Source: Ophryocystis elektroscirrha (taxonomy: Eukaryota > Apicomplexa > Conoidasida > Neogregarinorida > Ophryocystidae). Taken from it: DNA of 64,000 nt. The stretch covers positions 62,001 to 126,000 of the forward strand of contig JAQIFP010000047.1 in NCBI GenBank assembly GCA_030141585.1, written 5' to 3'. Under the pieces are notes generated by a model that was given only the letters and a program-made list of their open reading frames with translations, was not told the origin of the DNA and searched no databases. Both the position numbers and the translations under genes were made by a program. This document shows, one piece after another, positions 2,240 to 59,150 of the stretch (position 1 is the first letter of the stretch; each line of letters starts with the position of its first letter).

Positions 2240-4534
2240 ATGCGGGGTTTACTATACTTTTGGTTTTTATTTTTTTCAAACTATTCTATTAAGGTATTTA
2301 TATTTTATTCAACGCTATTATTTAGGCTTCACCCCCAGATCATCTCTTCAATAGCATAAAATTATTTGGAAAAATCTTAGAAACTCACCAAGGAAGAATC
2401 ATTACAATAAACTCGACTTTTTTAACTTCTCAGACCAAATTAAAGCACGTTCTTAAAAGTATCAATGAAATGTTTATTATGTTGTCTCAACTGCAGCGCA
2501 GCATGGAGTCTTTTGCTAGTAATATCGTTGCATATACTAAGTTTTTCTTCAGAGGAGTTGACAATATTTCAACAAGATGATACGTCAGAAGATATGTTAA
2601 GAAACGCATACATAAATCATTTAAAACATTCATGTAATATATATATATATATTTAACTTGTTTACTGATAGATTTATTTTTTCCAAGATTATTATTATTA
2701 TTATTGCATGTATTTTTGTTAGTGTATACATGCATATATATATGCACTTATAATTATATATACACATGCATACATACATTAAGTCTTTTTAGATAATACA
2801 TATATAAATGTATATGCAAATATATTTATATATACATATGGATATATATATTAAATTTTTTTTAGATTATATATATATGCAGATAATTTTATATTTACAC
2901 ATACATACAAAAAATCTTATTAGATAATATATAAATATATATATATATATATTCATGTAACATGTGTAAGTTATTTCCAAAATATAAAAAAAAGGGTTTC
3001 ATGAAAGAATATTAAAAACAGTCTTGATCATTATGCAATAGCACTTTCAGATGATACGTTCAACGCCCTCCAAAGAATTAAGCCCACGTTAAAAAACCTT
3101 TCTACAGAAGAAGCAAGAAAATTTCAACATTTAGCTAAATATGACAAACGAGACTTTAGGGAAATCAACGTTTTTCTTTTGGAACATTTTATTGCCGCAG
3201 GACTTTCATTTTCTCCAAAAAACTTGCATTTTGTTAGTGATAGGTCTGTATCAGCTTTTTTAAAAGGATCTTACAAATTAAAACTTTTGACATACCAAAA
3301 AGCACCCTTCTTTATAGCAAAATTAAAAGCCGTTACCATTTCAGGCGGTTTAATACACTTTGGAGCATTGAAGTTTACTCCAAGTAAAATATATACAACA
3401 TCACAAATATTGATCTCCCGCTTAGTATAAATGTTGATAATTCAATATTTAGTTAAAATTTAATCAAATTCTTTAAAATATATATGCGCTGACTCTCATT
3501 TATTAACATTTTTAGTGTATGTGAAACCTGACTTTCTTTCCACAAGTAAGCTAAAGGGACCATTACTAGAAAGAAATTTAAAAATGGGTCAATCAGAAGA
3601 AACTCTTGATCGAATAGACATTTCAAATTTAATTGATGAAAAAGAACCTATTCGTCCAGCAAAGTCATACCAAAACTTAAGTTCAGCTGAATATTCGGAA
3701 GCATCCAGCAATCAACAAAGCAATTCATCAAATGAGAGTTTTATGGAGACATATCAAGGTGATTTTTACTTACAAATAACAACAATATCAACATCTGTTG
3801 CACAACATATGACAAACTTCCATAAACATAAGCATTATTTTGGGTTATTAAATGGGCATTGGACGTTATTTATTGATTTTAATGTCGGAACTTTACAAAT
3901 ATTCTTTCATTCCTTACCTGTAACTACTTTCAATTTTGCTGCCATATTATCGAATTTTTTATTAAACGAAGACATGATTTACAGTTTTGCTGATCTTCCT
4001 CTGAATATATTTTCTTATACATGCTCTCAATGTAATGTGAATGAATCTGTACACTCCATGGTTAAGTTTGGGCTTATTTTGTTCCATGTTCACACAAATC
4101 AAATACGGTCTATTTTATTCACAAGTTATCGCCTAGAGAATATTTTAAACGAAAAATCACTTGATTTACTAAATAGTACAAAAAAACGGTTTTTAGAAAA
4201 AAATTTGCGAGCAGTTCAGTTGTTTGGAATGGACAATACTCCAGTTGAAAAACTACAGATCTATAGATGTGAAAGTGCAGAGTTTGAAAATAAAAGTGTT
4301 AGTCTTTTATTGGCTAAAGATACATCCGTATTTTATTTTAATTTTATTCTTCAAGAAAATCTTCCAGATGTCATTGCGGAAAGTCCTTTTATGTCTTTCT
4401 GCTCATCGTTTGCAATTTATAAATACGATAATGCAATATACGGCAATTATTTTAATCTTTATTCGACTCAAATCAGTTATGAGATGGTAATTGAACGTCA
4501 TAAAAAAGAATTTAAAAAAACAGCCATTCGTTAG
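2240..4534 (+). CDS. Unrecognised secreted protein, paralogue of 1-1068, multi-exon
   Basis: Exon 1 (2240-2293) encodes a signal peptide (MRGLLYFWFLFFSNYSIK). Exon 2 begins at 2326 and is helical. A 34-nt intron (2519-2552) with a TACTAAG branch-like site restores the frame to ...KELTIFQQDD. Exon 3 starts at 3022 (LDHYAIALSDD...) and ends at 3383. A 132-nt intron (3384-3515) leads to the last exon 3516-4534. The junction from about 2595-2633 to 3022 is uncertain because the donor phase does not fit perfectly. The C-terminal 340 residues share with the gene at 1-1068 the Trp/strand block, the CxxC (TCSQCN), YRCE and SPFMSFC. A serine-rich low-complexity stretch precedes this block. Function unknown; the signal peptide suggests export or secretion. 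Confidence 0.7.
2640..3000. repeat. AT-rich degenerate repeats in an intron
   Basis: This intronic stretch of the gene at 2240-4534 consists of loosely repeated blocks. Each has TATATA/TACATA runs followed by a T-rich tract and TTAG-ATAATAT or TTAG-ATTATAT (near 2790, 2860 and 2920). Each block looks like a weak splice acceptor. I cannot show that any of them is used. Confidence 0.4.
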
Positions 4535-14173: not shown

Positions 14174-17100
14174 AGTGCCATTATTTATCAGTGTTATTTA
14201 TCATTAAACGACAACATCCATTTTTGGTTATTTAAAAATTTATATAAATAGAATAATATTTGTATATAATTAAATATTAACATATAAATATATAAAAAGT
14301 ATTTTTGATTAAAATAAACTTTTATTTGATGTTTTACCGTATTGGCTCGTTCTGGGTTTGCTCCATATCTTAATAATATCTCAACAATATCCGTGTAATT
14401 TTTGAGCACTGCGATCATTAACGGAGATTTCTTGTTCTAAATATGATAAAAATTACGCATATATTTTACGCAGTCGAACCGGTTCACATCAACTCCCATT
14501 TTCAAAATTTTGTTTACTTCTTTCAACTGATGTTTTTCAATCGCATCACATAAGTATTTTAGCTAAAACAGCAGATAGATATGTTGCATTTATTATTACA
14601 TCAGTTGAAACGTTTTGTAATTTTTTATTTCTCCCTTCATTGTTCTGAGTGCAAAATTAAAAAAAAAAGTGAATAAATAACTGTAATATTATTATAATTA
14701 TATTATTTTTATTCATTATCTATTGATCAAAATCTATGTTTTATAGTAAAGAACTTACATTTGATTGATGCGATTCTCGTTTTAAACTAATAGATATATT
14801 TTTCCTTAAGTGTAAATCGGCGAAGATAAAACTGGCCATTGCTATAACAAACCCAAGCAAACCTAATGTAACCTGAAGCTTAAAGATTAATTAAGCGATA
14901 ATACCAGTTTTTGACCGAAGACAGCATATGACAAAAACAACTCATCCAAATAATCGACAATAAAACTGCATTTTACTTGTCGAGTCATTTTAGAAATATC
15001 ATAATCAACATATCTACATTAAAAAAAAAATGATCTATATGAGAGATTACTGCTCGATTACATCTCGATAAAAAGCAAGGTGACTGTAAACCCATTGAGT
15101 TGCTTGAAGTGACTCGGTAAGATTTTCTAAGCTCTAAAATGTTGACGATTATAAATACATTTAAATTTATTTAAATATATTTAATTTTCATTTTTCGAAA
15201 TTTCAGAACCAATACAATAACACTTATAATACACAAAGTCTTATAATAAATTAAAATTAGGTTTTATACTAATCATAAAAAAGGTTTATTTCAAAATATT
15301 AAAGAGGGTTTTCAACTATTAAGAGAGTTTTATTCTAATCGTTTACAAAATTTTATTATAAATTTTTGAAGCGTTTTCCAATAAATTTTTAATAGATTCT
15401 TATAATAATTTCTAAAGANNNNNNNNNNNNNNNNNNNNNNNNNNNNNNNNNNNNNNNNNNNNNNNNNNNNNNNNNNNNNNNNNNNNNNNNNNNNNNNNNN
15501 NNNNNNNNNNNNNNNNNNCAAAATATTAAAGAGGGTTTTCAACTATTAAGAGAGTTTTATTCTAATCGTTTACAAAATTTTATTATAAATTTTTGAAGCG
15601 TTTTCCAATAAATTTTTAATAGATTCTTATAATAATTTCTAAAGATTCTTAAAACTACCTTATGAAGGGTCTTATAACTAAACCCTACAAAGGATCTTAT
15701 ATTAACCTTACAGAGGTAATTATATCGACCTTACAGAGGTAGTTATATTAACCTTACAGAGGTAATTATATCGACCTTACAGAGGTAGTTATATTAACCT
15801 TACAGAGGGTCTTAAAGCAACCTTATAAGCTGTCTTATAATGATACTTTAGGACCCCTTTGTTGATTTAACAGCTATGTTTATATAAATTTTTTGAAGAG
15901 TTTCAAAGCATATGCTAGAAATATGGAAATGCTTTATACATAATTTTTACTCACTGAACAGCTAACGTTAGAATAGTGAAGTAATTGATTTATTGTAAAG
16001 AGTCCCAAACAAATTCTTTTTTTTACAATCTCCCCGCAAGAACCAATATGTGGTGTACATTGGAATTTGTGCTTAACTGATTTCTTAAATATGACTTTAC
16101 CAAAAAAATCAATTGTACACAAAGGTTCATCCAGACCATTGATGAGAATTATTGGCAACCGTGAATCGGTAGAACCACATAAAAAGTATTTCTTTTTAGT
16201 AAGTATACACAAGTTTTGAAAATTGTTCGGATGAGAACATCGAAAATGTAGGTTTTGTGTATATATTAATAATTTACTGATAGTTGTATATTTCTTATTT
16301 GTTTTTGGATAACAAGTGCTATCTTTGAGATTTCGGATTTTTGTAACTTTGGGGTTGTAATCTTCGGGGTAATTTAGTAATTTATACGGTGACTTGTCTT
16401 CATCGTACAAATCTCTTTGCTTCATTTGCTCTATATTCAAAAGATTTTCTTTGACATTTAATGCAGGATACTGATTGGTATTTTGAATAGGAAGCTTTAT
16501 TTGAGCTTCAGACTTTCTTGTATCATTAGTATCAAATTTATGTTCAAAATTCTCTGCATTGAAGTTAGAAGATTTTTCAAATTCATTAATTCCTTTAACT
16601 CTATTAGAATAATTTTGAAAGCTTGCGGGACTCAAATATTTACTAGTTTCCAAATCAGAATTTTCAGGGAAAAATGTAGCTAATATTAATAAATTAACAT
16701 TTTCTATAGTTGATAATGTATTTTGAAATGTATTCAAATCACGCATATGTGCAGTCATCCATTTGTGATTAGAAAACTCAAAGTCTAATTTCACTGATTT
16801 ATCTAAGCGTATTAAGCTAATTAATAACCGTTGAAAATGTTTTAGCGTTGCTAAAGACCCATCCGATGTAACAAATGTAATGTATCTATATATCTGTTCC
16901 ATATATATTACGTATTCATAAAATGTAGGAGTAAAATATTCTATCCAATCTTTTTTTTTTATACAGGCTTCAAGTGAATTTATTAATTGAATTTTATTTG
17001 GAAGTGATTCAGTACTAGAAAGAACATTTATATACGTTATTTGCTGTTTTGTATTTCTAAATAAATCATGAATTGCAATGAAAGGAAACGCTGTGTACAT

Positions 17101-34101: not shown

Positions 34102-36811
34102 ATGAGATCAATTTTGGTACTTGCTTTAGGAAACCTTTTGGTTGATAATGTTTTAAGTGCTTCACAAGATCATGTAGCTGTCTTTCCTAGCCATCTAGAT
34201 CACGTTGAAGCTGAGCCAGTAGATATCAGCCCACATTATCAGATGAAGGAAGGTAACTTACTGTGTAAATAACGCATTTGTTGTTTTCTTACAAGAGAAA
34301 TTATATTTAGCAGTTCTATATGTAGTCATACATTGTGATTATCATTACCATTCTTGTAATTGTACTGTGTATAGTTAAATATTTACCTATTATACATTAC
34401 TTATTAAGGAGGTAGAAAATATACGAGAACTATAATTAGCTGAAAAAAAAAAAAAAAAAAAGTATAATAGACTAGATATATTGCTGTGTGATAATAATAA
34501 TAATAATTATTGATTATTATAATTACTTTTACTTTAATTTTTGAACTTAGGAAACACTATACTATCTGATGGATTACCTACTACCGATTTACACCCAAAT
34601 TTGAATGAAGAGATTAGAAAATTAAATCCAACTAACTACGTTCATTCTTACTGGGGAAACGAACCAGCGGTATCTTACGAAGATGCAGTGATGTACTCTG
34701 GCGCTGACACCTTCAACTATGTACCTGTAGTAGACAACACTGTGTCTAAAAAAGACTTGAAGAAGCAAAAAAAAGCTATTGAAAAACAAATAAAAGAAAT
34801 TGAAAAACAGGAAAAAGAAGACAAAGATGAAGATGATTCTAAGAAAGAAAAAAAGAACAAGAAAAGCAAAAAAGAAAAAGAACACAATAAAGAAAAAGAA
34901 CACAATAAAGAAAAAGAACACAATAAAGAAAAAGACGACGATAAAGAAAAAAACGACGATAAAGAAAAAGACGACGATAAAGAAAAAGACGACAATAAAG
35001 AAAAAGACGACAATAAAGAAAAAGACGACAATAAAGAAAAAGACGACAATAAAGATAAAAAAAAAGATATAAAAGATAAAAAAGAAGACATTAAAAACGA
35101 AAAAAAAGACATTAAAAACGAAAAAAAAGACATTAAAAACGAAAAAAAAGACATGGATAAAAAGGAAGCTGACGAAAAAGCAGAAGAAGATGAGGAAGAA
35201 GATGAAAAAAATAATGAGGAAAATTTAAGACAAACTAGACAATTAAAAGAAAATACATCAGATTTACGTCAAACACAAGAAAACAAACCGTCTAAAAAAC
35301 AAGAAAAACCCGGAAATGCAGAACAAGACCAAAATAACACGGATACCACTTTATATGGTGTTGTAGTGAAAAATGGAGAAGCCACGGTAAGTAAAATAAC
35401 AGCAACCAAATTTGCAAGTGGCAAAGTTAAGCTAAGCACACCTGACGGCATATTTATAACTAACGCGTTTTCTCTCTCTAAACCAGCAGACGAAGAATCT
35501 CAAGAAAAAAATAAAACAAATAAAGATGAAAGTTCAGATAATAAGTCAAATGAAAAACATAAAAGATTATTGAACATCCATCAAGGTTCGACTCATAGCC
35601 ATTTCTTTGAAACATCAGTCGGACATTTGGGATTTATTGAACCAGATCCTACCATAATTATTGAGCATACAACGCCTGTTAAATTAATTGAAGAACCCTT
35701 AGAAGTTATTGTATCTGATACCGTCGCTGTTGAACAACCAGTAACAGTACGTGTTAAAGATTTCTTCAGAGGACTATTTCACATACCAGAAGTTTCCGCA
35801 GGAAAAAAAGAAGAAGACATTAAAAAAACTCAACTATCAGAAAATAAAGACGAAAATGTTATGGAATTAGCTAAAAAAGCTAAAGGAGAAGACAAAACAG
35901 CAGAAAAAAATATTGAAACCGAAAAAAAAGATATAGAAAAACAAGAAAAAGAAGCTGAAAAAGAAGCTGAAAAAGAAGCAGAAAAAAAAGAAAAAGAAGC
36001 AAAGAAAAAAGCTGACAAAGAAAGAAAAGAAGAAGAGAAAAAACAAAAAGATATAGAAAAAAAAGAAAAAGAAGCCAAGAGAAAAGCTGATAAAGAAAAA
36101 AAAGAAGAAGAAAAAAAACAAAAAGAAATAGAAAAAAAAGAAAAAGAAGCTAAAGCTAATGCTGAAAAAAAACAAAACTTAGAAGAAAAAAAATCAGAAG
36201 CTGATTCTGAAGCCGATAAACTTAAATCTCACCAAAAAATAGAAAATGAATTTGCCTCATCCAATGAAAATACTGCTCAAGAATATGGAGAAAAAGCTAA
36301 TGAAAAAGCTGAAAGTTTAGAAAAAAGTCCTGAAATGCAAAATGAAGCCCCAAAAAGTGAAAAACAAGAAAAATATGAAGAACCAAAAAAAGCTATGGAA
36401 AACACTAAAAAACAATTAACAAATAAAGTAGAAAATGTAAGAGGAGCTGATAGAAACGATAATAAGCACAAAGTTGAGGAGAAATTCCAAGAAGGAGGAG
36501 ACAAAATTAAAAAAGCCTTCAAAGACCTTGGAAAGAAAATGAGTGGTGAAGAAAGAAAAACTCATACTGCTAGTAGTGGAGGCATGAGCAATTCACAGGA
36601 AACTGGTAGAGCTCAAGAAATGAGTCATGCCCAAGAAAATAGCGGCGCTACAGGAATGAGCGGCAGTCAAGGAATGGCTGCATCTAATGATAGGGCTTCA
36701 ACCAACAATAAAATAGGATCTCAAAATAACGCGGGAAATAACATTCAAGAAAACTCAAGTTTATTCGATAGTTTATCGTCTTTAAACAAAATTTTTGCTA
36801 ATTCAGCATAA
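34102..36811 (+). CDS. Large secreted Lys/Glu-repeat protein
   Basis: Exon 1 (34102-34252) begins MRSILVLALGNLLVDNVLSA, a signal peptide. I chose this Met over the upstream in-frame codons because it starts the hydrophobic core. A 298-nt intron (34253-34550) joins exon 2 (34551-36811) in phase 1. Exon 2 has a Tyr/Pro-containing N-terminal block, then a repeat zone of KEKEHN, KEKDDD/KEKDDN and KKDIKNE units (about 34870-35155). A globular region follows (VVVKNGEATVSKITATKFAS to VEQPVTVRVKDFFRGLFHI, about 35340-35790), then a second Lys/Glu helix zone with 23-24-residue units (KEKEAKKKADKERKEEEKKQ, about 35890-36180), then a Gly/Ser/Gln/Met-rich tail. Highly charged repeat antigens of this style are common in blood apicomplexans; I do not claim orthology to a named one. 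Several minus-strand frames here are shadows of the repeats. Confidence 0.85.
34872..35150 (+). repeat. In-frame coding tandem repeats (KEKxxx and KKDIKNE units)
   Basis: Three 18-bp units AAAGAAAAAGAACACAAT are followed by seven or so 18-bp units AAAGAAAAAGACGACAAT/GAT. Three 21-bp KKDIKNE units come next. All are in frame, so length variation would preserve the protein. Confidence 0.9.
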
Positions 36812-50869: not shown

Positions 50870-52362
50870 CTAATAATTGTAAATTGCTAAAATATATGGC
50901 ATTTATTAAATTATATAATAATATTTTCATTAAAATTAGTTTTTATAATTGTTCGAATATATTGATACTAATGAAAAATTTGTACTCATAGGAACATAGA
51001 GGATTTGAATAGCTTAGAACCTACCTTGATACTTAAAAATAAAAAAAATAAAGATAAAAAAAAAAGATCTGTTTTGACGCTTCATCACAATAAAAACTCA
51101 TTGTAAAATAAGTTTATTATTTATACGTTTATATAGAAACTTTTTAGCTTCTGGTTCTGCGGACAAAAAAATTCGTTTATGGGATTTATTAGAAGAAAAA
51201 ATTGTTGCTCAATATAAGCATCATGAAGCAGAGGTAATAAACCTATGTTTGAAATTTAACTTAACTTTTAACAATAATCTTTAAAATTAATATTATAAAA
51301 TTTTAGAGTAATATATAAAATTCATTAATTACACTTCAGCTTATATGATTACCTACATATATATACATTCTTAAATTGATTAGCAATCTTTATCTTGATA
51401 ATCTTTTATTTTATATAAATTGATTAAACTGTCATTTATGTTTTAATTTTATATACACTAATATAACAATTATTGATAACATTACTTTTATAGCGTTAAA
51501 TGTATACATAGTTTAGGTAACTCATGTGAAATGGCATCCAGTTGAAGAGACTGTACTATTGTCATCTGGAGAAGATAAAGTGGCTTCAGTTATTGACGTC
51601 AGGTCTCCAACCGATGGGGTAATATTTTGTTATATAATAAAACATATAGATTATATACATATACTAAATTATATTAAAATTATATATATACATTATATAT
51701 ATAATCATATGTGTATACATTATATATAAAATAAACATTATATATTAAAATATAATATTGTAATGGTTGCAATGAAATTTATTGAATTTTACGCAAACGT
51801 TGAGATAATGAACGAAAGTCTATTATAATAAATACATTTTATAATTGATGTTTTCTTACAGTTACAAAAAGAAATGCGTAAGCAAATTAATGCTTGTATA
51901 TGGCTCCAAAGTGATCCAACAAAATTTCTAATTAGTTACGGAAAAGGTTCCGTAGCATGTTATGATATTCGTGGATGGTCAAAAGGAAGCACAAAACCAT
52001 TTTGGAAAAAAACTCTACACGAATCAGTATGTACTGGAATGGCAGATTACTCAGGTATATTATTAAATTTATTTGATGCAATTTAGGTGTTCCTATATTT
52101 ATGACCACGGCAACTGATGGACAAGCCCACGTTTGGGCAATTCAAAAGAATCAGGAAATCGTCAATTTGACTAACCGACATCTCAACGCGGTACACTTCT
52201 TCTACTAAAAAGACTCAATGATATTAGGGTACCTTATACGACGTTGATAAACATCCTGATATACAATCTTTATTTGCATGTGTCGGAAATGTCCCTGTTC
52301 TCTGGGACATTAACGAATCTAGTGCTGTTTCTAATTTCGTCAATGAATACAAAAAAAATTAA
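49910..52362 (+). CDS. PWP1: Periodic tryptophan protein 1 (PWP1), WD40 ribosome-biogenesis factor
   Basis: Nucleolar WD-repeat protein needed for 60S assembly. Start ATG 49910 (MKSKITTCKWIPRN, the family N-terminus). An acidic segment follows, including NDPYLDANIDE. Exon 2 (near 50480-50635) gives DDANAREAELIKASDCLLIT and WINDYVTNAFYVHHEI. Next come LDWIPPTDKYPHVSCVMGFY, then WD repeats: FLASGSADKKIRLWDLLEEK (near 51150), THVKWHPVEETVLLSSGEDK (near 51530), WLQSDPTKFLISYGKGSVAC, TTATDGQAHVWAIQKNQEIV and SLFACVGNVPVLWDINESS (near 52270). Ends VNEYKKN with stop 52360-52362. At least eight exons. Frames running from 51526 and 51874 past their donors into AT-rich tails are read-through. The last repeat is complete, so the gene appears whole. 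Confidence 0.9.
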
Positions 52363-52565
52363 GCAATAACTGTTTTTCTTTACTGTGTAAAAAAACTGAA
52401 TAATTTATTTTTATATTGTTCTTTCTACTTTTTTTTAGATATTGTAAACTTGCTAAATTATGAAAATTATTAATTATTCGGGATTGCAAACAAATTAAAA
52501 AATATAAAAATATATGATAAGTGTTCATTTAATTATCAAAATCATCAAATGATTCGCTTTTAGCT

Positions 52566-55500
52566 ATGTTTTTAAAAAAAACTTTTTCTTCGTTGCTTTA
52601 TCTCCTTTCAAATATACAAGACAAATATACGAGGTGAAAACTTCTTCAAAATAATAATTTATAGTGATCTATCGATTATAGATTCTTCAGGTACTTTAAG
52701 AATATTTTCAGATACAAGTAGATGGAGAATATGAATGGGTATCTTATGAAAACTTAGAAATTAACAGTAAATTCTCAATTCTTTATGTTATTGTATAAAG
52801 ACAATATCAATGGTTCTGATTTTGCAAAATATTATTTGCCACCAGTCGAACCAGTCGATATTTTAGGGGATCGATCTTCAATAGACACTGGTAGAATCAA
52901 CAGTGCTAAATACCATATCAGATGAACTTAATTTAGGTCTGGATCAAGAACTGTCTCTTCGTACGTTACATTTTATATATAATTATGATTTATTATTTGA
53001 TAACTAAAAAGAAATAATTCTTCTTTGGTAGACTTATCTATTACATGTCAACTGACATATATAATAGCTACAGTAATAGACAATTATATAGCTTTTAGAC
53101 AGTACATAGTATTATGGGATACAGAGGCATTCATAATGAATCAGCGATATTATCAAATATATGGTCATATAATAGAGGCTTTTATTAGTTTACAATACTA
53201 CGTTGATATGTAGTAAATAAGAATAATGATAGCAAGAAATGCAATCGAAATACTGTTGCTAATATATATTTGAAATTAATTAGTTCCTGCGTGTAATAAC
53301 ATAGTATTGATATTTAAGTAAACATAAAACTATGCTATAAGTTCATCAACTCGCTCAAAGATAATTATTTTACAAATTCTGCGAATTAAATATATATATA
53401 TATATATATATATTTTGAGAAATATAAATTAATTAAATCTACACATTCTTTATGCAACACAATAAACAAATCTTAACTCGACTAAAAGTTAAAATAATAT
53501 TTATTTAACGTTAATTATTTATGAAATATTTTTCTTTATAAGTAATTGACTTTTTATACTTATGAATTTATAAATTATTGGCGCACCGTAAATACATCAA
53601 ACATTGATTATATAGATCATTAGAAATAAATTTATATGGTAATTTTTATTGTAGAATACAAATACAAGCATTTTGGTAGTTACACAATAAACAGCTGCGC
53701 TTAAATTTAGTCAACATTTATAACATAATCATGTATATTTATTAAACTAATAGATATATTGTTTTATGTCAATTATTACGACGAATTTTTAGAAGAAGAC
53801 TCCCAAATTGATACAACAATAAAATCAGATTATCAAACGGGTAATTTCTAGTGTGAAAAAATAATAACAACAATAATTAATATTTTATATATATATATAT
53901 ATGTATATATTTTAATATTAATATCTCAAGTGTAATACATAACCATAAATTATTGACTACTTAAACTTAATGCATCTGCAATGTCATTATGAATTGTCAG
54001 AAATTTCGTTATTGTTACAATTTTCTACTAGAATGAGGATGCTATATATATAAAGCTTTTCAGTATTTGATAGATTTATTAAGGCTTGTAATAAGTACAA
54101 CTATACTCAGCAGCTTACCAAATAATCATATAACATGCATTACATAAGTCATCAGTTTATAAGCTTACTTTCATTATATAAAAGTTGACAGCATTTGTGA
54201 TTTTACTTCATATTATTTTCACTTTCAGATGAAGTTTCCAGCTTTCAATCAAAAAAAGGTAAAAAAACTTATAAAATCAAGATTTATTCTGATGTTAAGT
54301 CAATCATTTGTTAGTATAATCTTTTCTATATGATTATATATGAGGTGCAACTGACATTTACGTAATATTCTTGTCAAACTAAATCTATTAATTTCAAACT
54401 ATTAGTAATTTAACAATAACTAAAATACTTCAACTATCATATACGTTTACCGTGTATATTACATTACATTTGTAGTATAATGGAAAATCTATATATTCTA
54501 GAAATAATAAATTGTACTTTTCCTCAATAGATCAAGTTCCTCTCTATGAATCTCAAGGTGTGATCATATGCATATGCTCAAAATATCAATATATGACACA
54601 TAAGACGTCGTATTAGTAACCTATAACAAAATAGACTAATATCTTTCAAAATAAAAACCCCCACTATTTGTATATTTTAGAAGAAATACCAGAATATCAA
54701 TCTCACCAAGGTATATATAAATAATCTTTATATGTTCAGTTAGTAATGATAATATAATGACATTTGCGTGGGTAGAACATACAGGGTCTTTGTATAATAA
54801 CAAACTATCCTTTATATCGAAATAAATTGAAAATATATTATATATAATTTATTTATTATCTATAAATTTTAATATCAATTAAACTTATTTATTTATATAT
54901 ACATATATATATATATATATAGTATGTCTTAAATAATCTAATTCAAATCTAACGTGTTCCAACATTTTGAAAAATTACTAAGGAATAACTGTAATTTCTT
55001 AAATCATTAATATATTATTTTCAGTTTCAGACGAACGCCTTCCAAGCTACTCGAGAGAAGGTACAATATATATATATATATATATATATATTCCGTCAAA
55101 ATATCAACATATGACACACAAGACGTCATATTAGTAACCTATAACAAAATAAATTAAAACCTTTCAAAATAAAAACCCCCACTATTTGTATATTTTAGAA
55201 GAAATACCAGAATATCAATCTCACCAAGGTATATATAAATAATCTTTATATGTTCAGTTAGTAATGATAATATAATGACATTTGCGTNNNNNNNNNNNNN
55301 NNNNNNNNNNNNNNNNNNNNNNNNNNNNNNNNNNNNNNNNNNNNNNNNNNNNNNNNNNNNNNNNNNNNNNNNNNNNNNNNNNNNNNNTTAAAACCTTTCA
55401 AAATAAAAACCCCCACTATTTGTATATTTTAGAAGAAATACCAGAATATCAATCCCACCAAGGTATATATAAATAAACTTTATATGTTCAGTTAGTAATA

Positions 55501-55645
55501 ATAATATAATGAAATTTGCGTGGGTAGAACATACAGAGTATTTGTATAATAACAAACTATCCTTTATATCGAAATAAATTGAAAATAGATTATATATAAT
55601 TTATTTATTATCTATAAATTTTAATATCAATTAAACTTATTTATT

Positions 55646-55677
<32 letters not shown>

Positions 55678-57568
55678 GTATGCCTTAAATAATCTAATTC
55701 AAATCTAACGTGTTCCAACATTTTGAAAAATTACTAAGGAATAACTGTAATTTCTTAAATCATTAATATATTATTTTTAGTTTCAGACAAACGCCTTCCA
55801 AGCTACTCGAGAGAAGGTACAATATATATACATATATATATATGTTGTATATAAATCAGAAAAAATTCCATTATATAAATCTCAAAAAGGTATAAATCAC
55901 TTGAACGATGATACAGTTGATATATATTAAAAATATATTGCATTAATACATTTAAAACTTTTACATAATGAGGTTTAAATGAAATAAATAGGTTAATTTT
56001 ATTTTTTTTAATTAAATTATAATGTATTAGAGTTTGTCTTATGTTGTAATTCTATCAATAACAATATACTCTAGATATATAGTTAGATCTTTTATTTATA
56101 CATTTATGTTTATAATAACTACATTAATCAATATATAGATTGCAACCTATGCGACAATTAATTAACCTAAATTAAATATTCTTTAAAAAAGTTCACACTC
56201 TATGATTAATCATACGTATCTTCCTTTAAAAAATCATATCTTCTAAAAGAATAATAAATAACGTACTGCATTTAAATTAGATTTGCTCATGAATTTATAT
56301 AAAATTGCTTAGCCAATAATTTATAAATTTTTATAATGTATTCATAATACTGTAAAATATATAATCAAATTATGAGAGAATAATTGTTATATCATTAATT
56401 TATTAATTATTATTATTATTATTGTTATTATTATAATTATTATTAGACAGCACAAATGTCTTCATTGAAAACAATAAACGAGCAAATTCAGTTTATATGT
56501 CTGATTAATAAAAAGTTCAAACTTTATTACATGAGCATAGATGACTGATGAATTGCGCATTTTTTTTTAGATACAGATGTCAATATGGACTCAAAAAGAA
56601 CCTCTACTACAAATAAAAATAAAAGTATGAGAATTAATCGAATATAGCTGTGTGTAATAATTAAATAGAGAAGTCAAGAAATTTACCGAAAAAAGATAAA
56701 TCAGATATAAACAATCAAATGACAAGTAAATTTATACTTTAAGTTTTTTATTCTGACCAGTTAAAGACTTACCACATTTACTAGCTTCAAATAATGATAA
56801 ATTAGTTAATACACTAGTGTCAAGTTATCTAGACAAGATCAATGAAAAAAAGAAGTTTTTGGAATACATAGATGCTGAAGAAGCAGAAAGAGCCTTAATA
56901 AATCATAACTTATATGAGACTTTCACTAAAACTAAACCACTTAGCGCTCCCGATCATGAACATAATGGTACGGAACATATGAATTTAAGAATGAATGCAA
57001 TTATTTATCTTAACATATTTATGTATGGCTATTATAAAATTATTTGATATAATACAATTTGATTGTTTATATCGAAATAAATTAGAAGGTGATGTTAAAT
57101 TTAATTAAAATGATTTATGCTACATTAACAGAGATGTCTGAGCAAAGTCCAAAAGACTTGACACAACTTTTGACAAAATATCCACAACTTGCTATATTAC
57201 TCGTTGACACATGCGCTATTAGAAACGCTGTGTACAATTATATAAATAACAGAAACATCAATAATGCGTCAAATGTGAATGTTTCGAATCAGTTAAAAAA
57301 CCTGACTGGCACCAATTCACCCTCAAACATGAATGATAGAAATTTAATGTCTAATATAGAAATGCTATTATCAAAGTTGTATAATTCTATAAAAAATGAT
57401 GACCATGAAGCAATAAACACTATTATTCCTATAGGTAAGAACTTTTCCACTATTGTCTAATTTCTAGATACGGAAAATGCTAATGTTCAGTGTTTGAAAC
57501 TAAGCGACTTCTTGTGCAAACACAACACTGGATATGTCCAAGTTTTTAATTTCTGCAATGGAATATAA
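52566..57568 (+). CDS. Micro-exon gene: signal-like exon plus a series of tiny phase-1 exons
   Basis: No family recognised. Exon 1 (52566-52633; MFLKKTFSSLLYLLSNIQDK) looks like a signal peptide. Next exons: 52665-52690, 52719-52766, 52801-52890, 52922-52960, and an uncertain one from 53032. Then micro-exons: 53793-53840 (48 nt), 54229-54258 (30), 54531-54557 (27), 54681-54710 (30), 55025-55060 (36), 55199-55228 (30), 55433-55462 (30), 55781-55816 (36), 55860-55889 (30), 56571-56624 (54) and 56669-56725 (57). Larger 3' exons are 56761-56967, 57132-57434 and 57468-57568 (ends FCNGI). Every intron from 52691 on is phase 1, so each internal exon is a multiple of three. Peptides: DEVSSFQSKK, DQVPLYESQ, EEIPEYQSHQ (three times), EKIPLYKSQK and VSDERLPSYSRE/VSDKRLPSYSRE. 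The 3' exons encode a helical domain (DLTQLLTKYPQLAILLVDTC). One gene is the best reading because phases agree throughout. The first exons could be a separate small gene ending at 53213. Confidence 0.7.
54577..55816 (+). repeat. About 518-bp tandem duplication carrying two micro-exons
   Basis: The unit contains exon A (EEIPEYQSHQ) and exon B (a Pro-Ser-Tyr-Ser exon) with their introns. Exon A at 54681 and 55199 is exactly 518 bp apart, and the surrounding intron sequence matches closely (for example GACGTC at 54604 and 55122). A third exon A (55433) and second exon B (55781) follow the gap. Copies differ by few substitutions, including one synonymous change in exon A and one Glu-to-Lys in exon B, so the duplication is recent. 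Confidence 0.85.
55288..55387. other. Assembly gap (100 N) inside the micro-exon array
   Basis: 100 undetermined bases. If the 518-bp period holds, about 385 nt are missing here rather than 100, and they should contain a further exon B. The frame 55282-55476 that spans it is artificial. Confidence 0.95.
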
Positions 57569-57719
57569 TAAAAAAAAAAGAACTGTGCAAAGATAGTGAC
57601 AACTTTTTTTTTAAACTTGATTAATCTTATAAATCTGGCAAATTAAAGTATGCTTCGTTAAACTTCTAATAGTTCCACACTTAATAAAAAAAAAAAACCA
57701 CCAATTTTATCTGTAAAAT

Positions 57720-59150
57720 ATGGATTACTTACGTGACCTATCAGAAGATTATCCGTTAGACACTCAATTTTACCCCATAAATTTTATAAGACCAAAAAAA
57801 GCGGAAAGAAATGTATTTGACAGATTGACAGATCATCAATTTTATACTGTATGTACTAACCTAACAATTAAATAATTTAATTTATTTCACAGTAATATAA
57901 ATAAGTTAAGTAGTTTATGAGTATACAGCGTATGCAAACTCTGTACTAATGATACTACAGCTTTATTAATTGTACTAACTCGTGTTTATGTAACAATTAT
58001 TGACAATATATAAACAAAATTTCATGTTCAATAAAAAAACGCAAAATAAATGTATATCTAACAGTTTATATTACGATTTAATATATTTAAATATTGTTTG
58101 GAATAAAGCTATAAATTAAGTTAATTTATTCAAGCAATTTTCTTTAAAATTAGTTTTTTTTTATTTTTAAAACGCAATTATGGTATAATATAAATACTTA
58201 TGAAAGTTATGAAATAGTTAACGATTAAAAAAGAAAAAATTCGCTTGAATTTTTTTTTTTTTTTCAGGATTTTAATTGCAGAATGTAAATCAATCTAATG
58301 TATGTTTGATAATCATTATGTGTATAGACAAAGTAATAAATAAATACTGTATTTAATATTTGATTCACTTTAATTATAGGGTATTCATAAAGAGCGATTT
58401 GATGAGTTTGGAATTGGTCGAGGATTGGCAGGGCGTGAATATTTATATCTAGATGACGGTATGACCGAAAGTGCTTCAAGATGTCATGAAGTTTATTCAA
58501 CCACAATTAAATTGCGTAAGATATATAGCATTTAGATAGCTTTTGTTCAAGCTAGAAAGCCAGTTGTTGAAGAGGGAACTTTAGGAGTGCAGAAGTTTGG
58601 TGTTCAAACAGTAACACCAAAACTTATATGGCTTTATAGGTAAGTGTAGGATATTGTATAATTTATAATTGTATTTAATTATAATAAAAGCATATATTTA
58701 TATATATATATATTAGAAATGGAGACAAATATCACAATGGAGTTGATTTTTTTGTAAAAAAACATATAAAAACACTCAATACTTTGTATCAGGAAGCAAC
58801 TAAAGTAATCTTTGTTATTATGAATATTATTTAGCTTGTTAAACCTGTAGCTGGTCCTATACGTTGCTTGTATGATCAGAATCTAAAACTTGTCACAGAT
58901 CTATGTGAAATTGTTGATGGTGGTAAATACTTATGCACTTCAGGTACAAAACTGATTCATTTTTCAAGCTTATACAAGCTTGTATATTCCTATTTTATAT
59001 ATGCACATATAAAATAGTAATTTAGCAATAATATTAAGCTTGAAATATTCTCATATTTATCATATACTCATTTGATGCTCAGGGGAACCTCCTACTCATA
59101 TAGACCGTCTAGAAAAATTTTTGAACTCCTGGGTTTATCAGGATGCATAA
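57720..59150 (+). CDS. Apicortin (partial p25-alpha plus doublecortin domain)
   Basis: Microtubule-associated protein of the apical complex/conoid in apicomplexans. Exons: 57720-57848, 58380-58515, 58552-58639, 58717-58804, 58835-58943 and 59083-59150; the intron before exon 5 is 30 nt. The partial p25-alpha (TPPP) motif is VFDRLTDHQFYTGIHKERFD followed by GIGRGLAGRE; the first splice junction falls between Thr and Gly of YTGIHKERF. A linker with GVQKFGVQTVTPKLIWLYR leads into the doublecortin domain: RNGDKYHNGVDFFVKKHIKT, LNTLYQEATK, GPIRCLYDQNLKLVTDLCEI and DGGKYLCTSGEPP. Start ATG 57720 is the only one that gives the N-terminal block. The length (about 205 aa) is normal for apicortins. Its 3' end overlaps the SulP gene on the other strand by 13 nt. 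Confidence 0.93.

Follow-up and report, generated by a model that had tools for sequence, protein, structure and literature searches.

Repeats in apicomplexan antigens usually lie within one exon, SICAvar genes are not known to be built of micro-exons, and the internal exons of schistosome micro-exon genes (MEGs) are symmetric. In an excerpt of the published account, micro-exons make up as much as 75% of the coding sequence of Schistosoma mansoni MEGs (PMC4015677), and the aphid bicycle genes, again in an excerpt, are described as having many unusually small internal exons, of which nearly all begin at codon position 2 (PMC9168663). The SICAvar genes of Plasmodium knowlesi form a multi-exon family with repeated cysteine-rich modules and a transmembrane domain, according to the portion of the source available to us (PMC3152765). 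No micro-exon gene in an apicomplexan is described in the titles and opening lines of abstracts of the open-access literature that we found. Here we analyse a 64,000-nucleotide window of the Ophryocystis elektroscirrha genome (C60:62001–126000; the genome comprises 8.0 Mb in 118 contigs), in which a predicted gene at window positions 52566–57568 on the + strand carries eight consecutive exons of 27–30 nt (m1–m8) that would encode related peptides. This is probably a real protein-coding gene, apparently single-copy and lineage-specific, the predicted splicing of which would place an array of short motifs, one per micro-exon, in the middle of the protein.

The genome has a G+C content of about 26%, and five of nine AP2 domain matches in a profile search exceed the Pfam cut-off, which fits the apicomplexan-like genome that had been proposed from the DNA alone. 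In a kinesin comparison the top four relatives showed 59–64% identity, a MIF4G search returned five distant hits, and the FAINT domain had no match, nor did the controls of that search. Codon log-odds were taken from long open frames and splice matrices from provisional introns in a 264-kb training sample (the window plus 100 kb each from contigs C2 and C31), and a dynamic-programming gene finder, blind to repeats and to the motif, was run over 52362–57721. A hand-built first model joined 17 exons in one open frame, and for 17 of 17 the coding score of the called frame is above zero. The final model of 19 exons (1,275 nt; 424 codons and a stop), which stays in phase throughout, was merged across gene-finder settings, none of which yields exactly that model (Table 1). 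A flat prior of −9 returns all 19 exons, with the m4 acceptor 6 nt upstream, and two extra ones at 53068–53209 and 53616–53638. At a flat prior of −10 eight of eight micro-exons are called, again with the upstream m4 acceptor, and the gene starts at 52785; the same eight are recovered when the codon table is trained without the window. With a length prior of −12, 5′ exons of 68, 26, 45, 90 and 39 nt are present, separated by introns of 31, 31, 34 and 31 nt, and m2 is skipped, an exon is added at 55492 and m7 and m8 are fused. The exons, AG/GT borders and repeated motif of the original prediction are present, and a program unaware of the motif recovers them. The first exon also connects to the rest in frame, by way of a 26-nt exon at 52665–52690 that had been left unmentioned, and the count of at least eleven tiny exons of 27–57 nt becomes 13 internal exons in that range plus the one of 26 nt.

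From exon 3 to exon 19, every exon begins at codon position 2. Of the 17 internal exons, 16 are symmetric, and exon 2 is the sole exception. Phase-1 introns make up 17 of the 18 in the gene, whereas among the 567 well-flanked introns predicted across the sample they number 190; the binomial probability of 1e-7 (2e-6 leaving out recent copies) overstates the evidence, because the exons duplicate one another and were picked in that phase. Nine exons are no longer than 36 nt, contributing 263 of 1,275 nt, or 21% of the coding sequence.

Such a chain might arise by chance in AT-rich DNA rich in AG and GT, or belong to a non-coding RNA. Spurious exons are frequent in this DNA and many are produced by the gene finder at low penalty. 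When the array middle was shuffled (100 times per setting, two settings, with the 100 N of an assembly gap left out), a flat prior of −10 still yielded a mean of 4.5 exons (maximum 7, versus 9 real), so that one micro-exon call taken singly means little. However, symmetric phase-1 micro-exons averaged 0.8 in these shuffles (maximum 4), and 0 of 100 reached the real score at either setting (67.6 versus a shuffle mean of 37.8 and maximum of 46.5 for flat −10; 46.6 versus a maximum of 34.8 for length prior −12). With the codon table trained without the window, the real scores were 58.3 (flat) and 37.8 (length prior); the reversed and reverse-complemented middles scored 28.2 and 32.1 (flat) and 27.2 each (length prior), and the opposite strand of the region 1.9 and −1.0. 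Random genomic inserts (100 pieces) gave a mean of 0.11 and a maximum of 2 symmetric phase-1 exons of ≤36 nt, versus 8 here. No cluster of at least three similar micro-exon candidates (21–45 nt) occurs outside the locus on either strand of the 264 kb; at the locus the cluster is visible in all three phases because the underlying DNA is itself repeated. Rfam gave no match at E ≤ 1. We regard an origin by chance or as non-coding RNA as very improbable.

The eight visible micro-exons would encode DEVSSFQSKK, DQVPLYESQ, EEIPEYQSHQ (three times), DERLPSYSRE, DKRLPSYSRE and EKIPLYKSQK; nine related peptides had been claimed, and the ninth would lie within the 100-N gap. [LIV]-P-x-Y is present in seven of the eight, against an expectation of 0.2 and a maximum of 2 in 2,000 shuffles. 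The motif first put forward, [DE]-x-[IV]-P-x-Y-x-S-Q, fits DQVPLYESQ and EKIPLYKSQ, but EEIPEYQSHQ, DERLPSYSRE, DKRLPSYSRE and DEVSSFQSKK depart from it. Exon DNA identity among m1, m2, m3 and m8 is 0.60–0.77, compared with 0.44–0.58 in their 30-nt flanks, and six of six pairs align better than their own shuffles (≤3 of 1,000 equally good). In these four exons codon position 2 varies in 2 of 10 columns and the other two codon positions together in 13 of 20 (p = 0.05), and pairwise differences in the called frame number 8/57 at codon position 2 versus 28 and 22 elsewhere. By exon, m4 and m7 are related to m1 (0 and 2 of 1,000 shuffles equally good). A strict pattern derived from m2, m3 and m8, YAGAWNARRTHCCNNNNTAYNNNTCN, has no exact match in the rest of the genome and five at the locus, which are there by design, so that its absence elsewhere alone informs. 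With one mismatch it occurs at two places in the genome, and with two mismatches it reaches background (56 and 56 hits versus 56 and 47 for controls). A looser micro-exon pattern has three matches at the locus and one elsewhere (controls, 0 and 2).

Splice sites of the micro-exons (acceptor scores, 3.4–5.5; donor scores, 4.1–5.4) are equal in strength to those of other exons. A second acceptor lies 6 nt upstream of m4 (55025) and of m7 (55781), the use of which would add Val-Ser; these are a possible source of small isoforms.

Part of the array consists of a 518-bp two-exon unit (m3 and m4) in tandem, with starts at 54578 and 55096 and a third copy from 55389, at 95–97% identity. Micro-exons m5, m6 and m7 are recent copies and, because their flanking introns were copied along (95–97% identity), they are not independent evidence. 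The unit has 176 matches in the genome; among the matches listed, three are long, all at the locus, and the others cover query positions 214–365 or 484–516, which are AT-rich stretches. Unit copy number is not fixed by the assembly because the 100-N gap lies inside copy 2. If the repeat register holds, the gap would span about 385 bp, or 385 bp plus multiples of 518, and would contain at least one further micro-exon. Gaps of 100 N are a scaffolding convention; the window has two of exactly this length, at 15419–15518 and 55288–55387.

The micro-exons might instead be remnants, with exon 6 spliced to exon 15 and the array a decaying intronic repeat. That junction would be in frame, the array sits within long AT-rich introns, and exons and introns were copied jointly in the three recent copies. 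Decay is nevertheless hard to reconcile with the frame being open, the length nearly constant and the splice sites good in eight of eight micro-exons, or with m1, m2, m3 and m8 being similar in exon and not in flank, with codon position 2 conserved. We therefore consider this explanation improbable.

Predicted introns in the sample are most commonly 30–36 nt long with a long tail (22–36% are ≥120 nt, depending on the prior), and those between the 5′ exons of the gene are 31–34 nt. Introns of the array measure 123–388 nt, the one exception being the 43-nt intron that separates m7 from m8; the introns bounding the array measure 832 and 681 nt. The 832-nt intron may hide further exons, some of which are placed there by several settings. 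Across the sample, 37 of 956 predicted internal exons are ≤30 nt, and three small exons occur in a row near C2:62.9 kb, in a gene that looks ordinary.

The predicted protein is acidic (69 D/E versus 45 K/R) and has four cysteines, three of them in the last exon. Its first exon, originally called signal-like, is weakly so (best 10-residue Kyte–Doolittle mean, 1.36 versus 2.56 in the leader of a neighbouring gene), and would at most weakly suggest secretion. The protein has no domain above the Pfam cut-off and no NCBIfam match at E ≤ 1; the C-terminal part has no convincing relative in the PDB (two weak matches, best E = 0.042), and in the genome the N-terminal and C-terminal parts match only themselves, so that no second copy was found. 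A CSTF2 subunit was considered and rejected: over the C-terminal 203 amino acids the hinge domain scores 14.9 bits against a cut-off of 27, and the genome read exon by exon has no CSTF2 hinge match. The Spt5 C-terminal domain (PF12815) weakly matches across the array (E = 0.0067; 17.4 bits versus a Pfam cut-off of 25.4), and no other Spt5 domain was matched. Two of three WW domain matches in the genome are above cut-off, and the array has IPxY, VPxY and LPxY motifs and no PPxY; the idea that the array is a WW ligand is a lead only.

These features also bear on whether the gene acts like a schistosome MEG, being secreted, with micro-exons chosen per transcript and many isoforms made from one locus. 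Exon symmetry would permit any subset, the long array introns, set against the common 30–36 nt, are compatible with looser exon choice, and the tandem acceptors at m4 and m7 point the same way. However, the leader is weak, the genome yielded no second copy, and micro-exon splice sites as strong as those of other exons do not suggest weak, skippable exons. Such behaviour is possible but on balance doubtful.

Several results weigh against a real gene with a spliced motif array. The exon path depends on the setting: between −8 and −10 some settings put extra exons into the 832-nt intron, and some fuse m7 with m8, include the exon at 55492, or lengthen or omit m2, and a length prior of −14 retains the 3′ exons only. 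The length prior with the codon table trained without the window also drops m2, m4 and exon 15, and the training set for the splice matrices included the window. Within the repeat family, m4 and m7 are poorly related to m2 and m3 (41 to 516 of 1,000 shuffles equally good), the m4 flank also resembles that of m1 (acceptor-side identity to m1, 0.69 for m4 and 0.66 for m7), and another frame codes equally well or better for m4 (2.4 versus 2.3) and m7 (2.5 versus 1.4). Only three exon differences were counted in the three recent-copy comparisons, which puts a selection signal in these copies beyond measurement. No homologue of the 381-amino-acid model was found among 1,733 candidates at E ≤ 10, a search that did not use the 424-amino-acid model as query and that distant relatives could escape because it required shared five-residue words and similar length; without a homologue there is no cross-species conservation to draw on.

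Taking the gene as real, the array would carry one motif of roughly [DE]-x-[IV]-P-x-Y-x-S for every 27–30-nt exon. Since both ends of each of its exons fall between the first and second bases of a codon, the array could lengthen, shorten or be skipped through without a frame break. An old phase of growth may have left m1, m2, m3 and m8 similar in exon with flanks that no longer align, and m4 linked mainly through m1; in a recent phase, the 518-bp unit would have been copied in tandem, introns included. The product would present an acidic, multivalent stretch of motifs ahead of a C-terminal region for which no homologues are recognised, and we infer that it is probably a docking scaffold. Splicing would be expected on this model, as would variation in copy number from strain to strain. 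A speculative and rather unlikely extension is that a unicellular apicomplexan-like organism has independently evolved a micro-exon gene for diversity, one locus that generates many protein variants both through exon choice in transcripts and through rapid change, from strain to strain, in how many two-exon units it has. Should the micro-exons be spliced, then a genome that is compact, and in which 30–36 nt is the most frequent length of predicted introns, also processes eight consecutive exons of 27–30 nt, the introns of which are mostly four to ten times longer than the commonest in the genome. The protein would then be a repeat protein that grows by exon copying rather than by repeats inside one exon. 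Standard gene callers may overlook exons so short.

Elsewhere in the window, a gene at 34102–36811 has a leader-like start, MRSILVLALGNLLVDNVLS, and encodes a long Lys/Glu/Asp repeat protein with KEKDDN-type tandem repeats of period 18. Its first exon and exon 4 of the micro-exon gene have five residues, EPVDI, in common, which is probably a coincidence. The open frames at 1–1068 and 3464–4534 are distant relatives (25% identity over 247 columns; E = 3e-08), neither has a Pfam match at E ≤ 0.1, and they possibly represent a tandem gene pair.

Table 1. Predicted exons, tandem units and assembly gap of the micro-exon gene (window coordinates)
Feature	Position	Strand	Basis
Exon 1, 68 nt, start codon, MFLKKTFSSLLYLLSNIQDKYT, weakly signal-like	52566..52633	+	gene finder, hydrophobicity
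Exon 2, 26 nt, asymmetric; keeps the frame between exons 1 and 3, with a 31-nt intron on either side	52665..52690	+	gene finder
Exon 3, 45 nt, GEYEWVSYENLEIN	52722..52766	+	gene finder
Exon 4, 90 nt, includes EPVDIL; gene start 52785 instead at flat prior −10	52801..52890	+	gene finder
Exon 5, 39 nt, DELNLGLDQELSL	52922..52960	+	hand model, gene finder
Exon 6, 48 nt, EDSQIDTTIKSDYQT; preceded by 832-nt intron	53793..53840	+	hand model, gene finder
Micro-exon m1, 30 nt, DEVSSFQSKK	54229..54258	+	hand model, gene finder, cluster search
Micro-exon m2, 27 nt, DQVPLYESQ	54531..54557	+	hand model, gene finder
Tandem unit copy 1, 518 bp, contains m3 and m4	54578..55095	+	repeat comparison
Micro-exon m3, 30 nt, EEIPEYQSHQ	54681..54710	+	hand model, gene finder
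Micro-exon m4, 30 nt, DERLPSYSRE; gene finder favours acceptor 55025 (6 nt upstream; adds VS)	55031..55060	+	gene finder
Tandem unit copy 2, interrupted by assembly gap	55096..55287	+	repeat comparison
Micro-exon m5, 30 nt, EEIPEYQSHQ, recent m3 copy	55199..55228	+	hand model, repeat comparison
Assembly gap, 100 N, within array	55288..55387	.	content predicted from repeat register
Tandem unit copy 3, mostly present, 97% identity to copy 1	55389..55843	+	repeat comparison
Micro-exon m6, 30 nt, EEIPEYQSHQ, recent copy	55433..55462	+	hand model, repeat comparison
Micro-exon m7, 30 nt, DKRLPSYSRE, recent m4 copy	55787..55816	+	hand model, repeat comparison
Micro-exon m8, 30 nt, EKIPLYKSQK; fused with m7 in some settings	55860..55889	+	hand model, gene finder
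Exon 15, 54 nt, DTDVNMDSKRTSTTNKNK	56571..56624	+	hand model, gene finder
Exon 16, 57 nt	56669..56725	+	hand model, gene finder
Exon 17, 207 nt	56761..56967	+	hand model, gene finder
Exon 18, 303 nt; CSTF2-hinge-like stretch, sub-threshold	57132..57434	+	hand model, gene finder, Pfam
Exon 19, 101 nt, stop codon; holds 3/4 of the protein's cysteines	57468..57568	+	hand model, gene finder

The C-terminal repeat of Spt5 has a P-x-Y-x-S-Q-like core, and the array resembles it in its short repeats of this kind but differs in scoring under the Pfam cut-off. The SICAvar genes, as far as the available portion of their description goes, are also multi-exon apicomplexan genes with repeated modules, but their modules are cysteine-rich, their products have a transmembrane domain and they form a family. 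The analogy with schistosome MEGs and aphid gall genes drawn in the original prediction holds for the architecture, and not for the outcome of the bicycle-gene classifier. That classifier, which was trained on aphid genes and was applied with its printed coefficients and with its variables as the excerpt describes them, rejects the gene (logit −5.74, p = 0.003; PMC9168663, in excerpt), and bicycle genes form a family whereas one gene was found here; exon phase is the same, since here, as in the excerpt's description of bicycle genes, codon position 2 is where internal exons begin (16 of 17 in this gene). Set beside schistosome MEGs, for which the excerpt gives a micro-exon share of up to 75% in S. 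mansoni and no minimum, exons of ≤36 nt make up 21% of the coding sequence here and the leader is weak, but the predicted gene is like those families in combining a large number of tiny exons with a frame that would be kept if exons were skipped.

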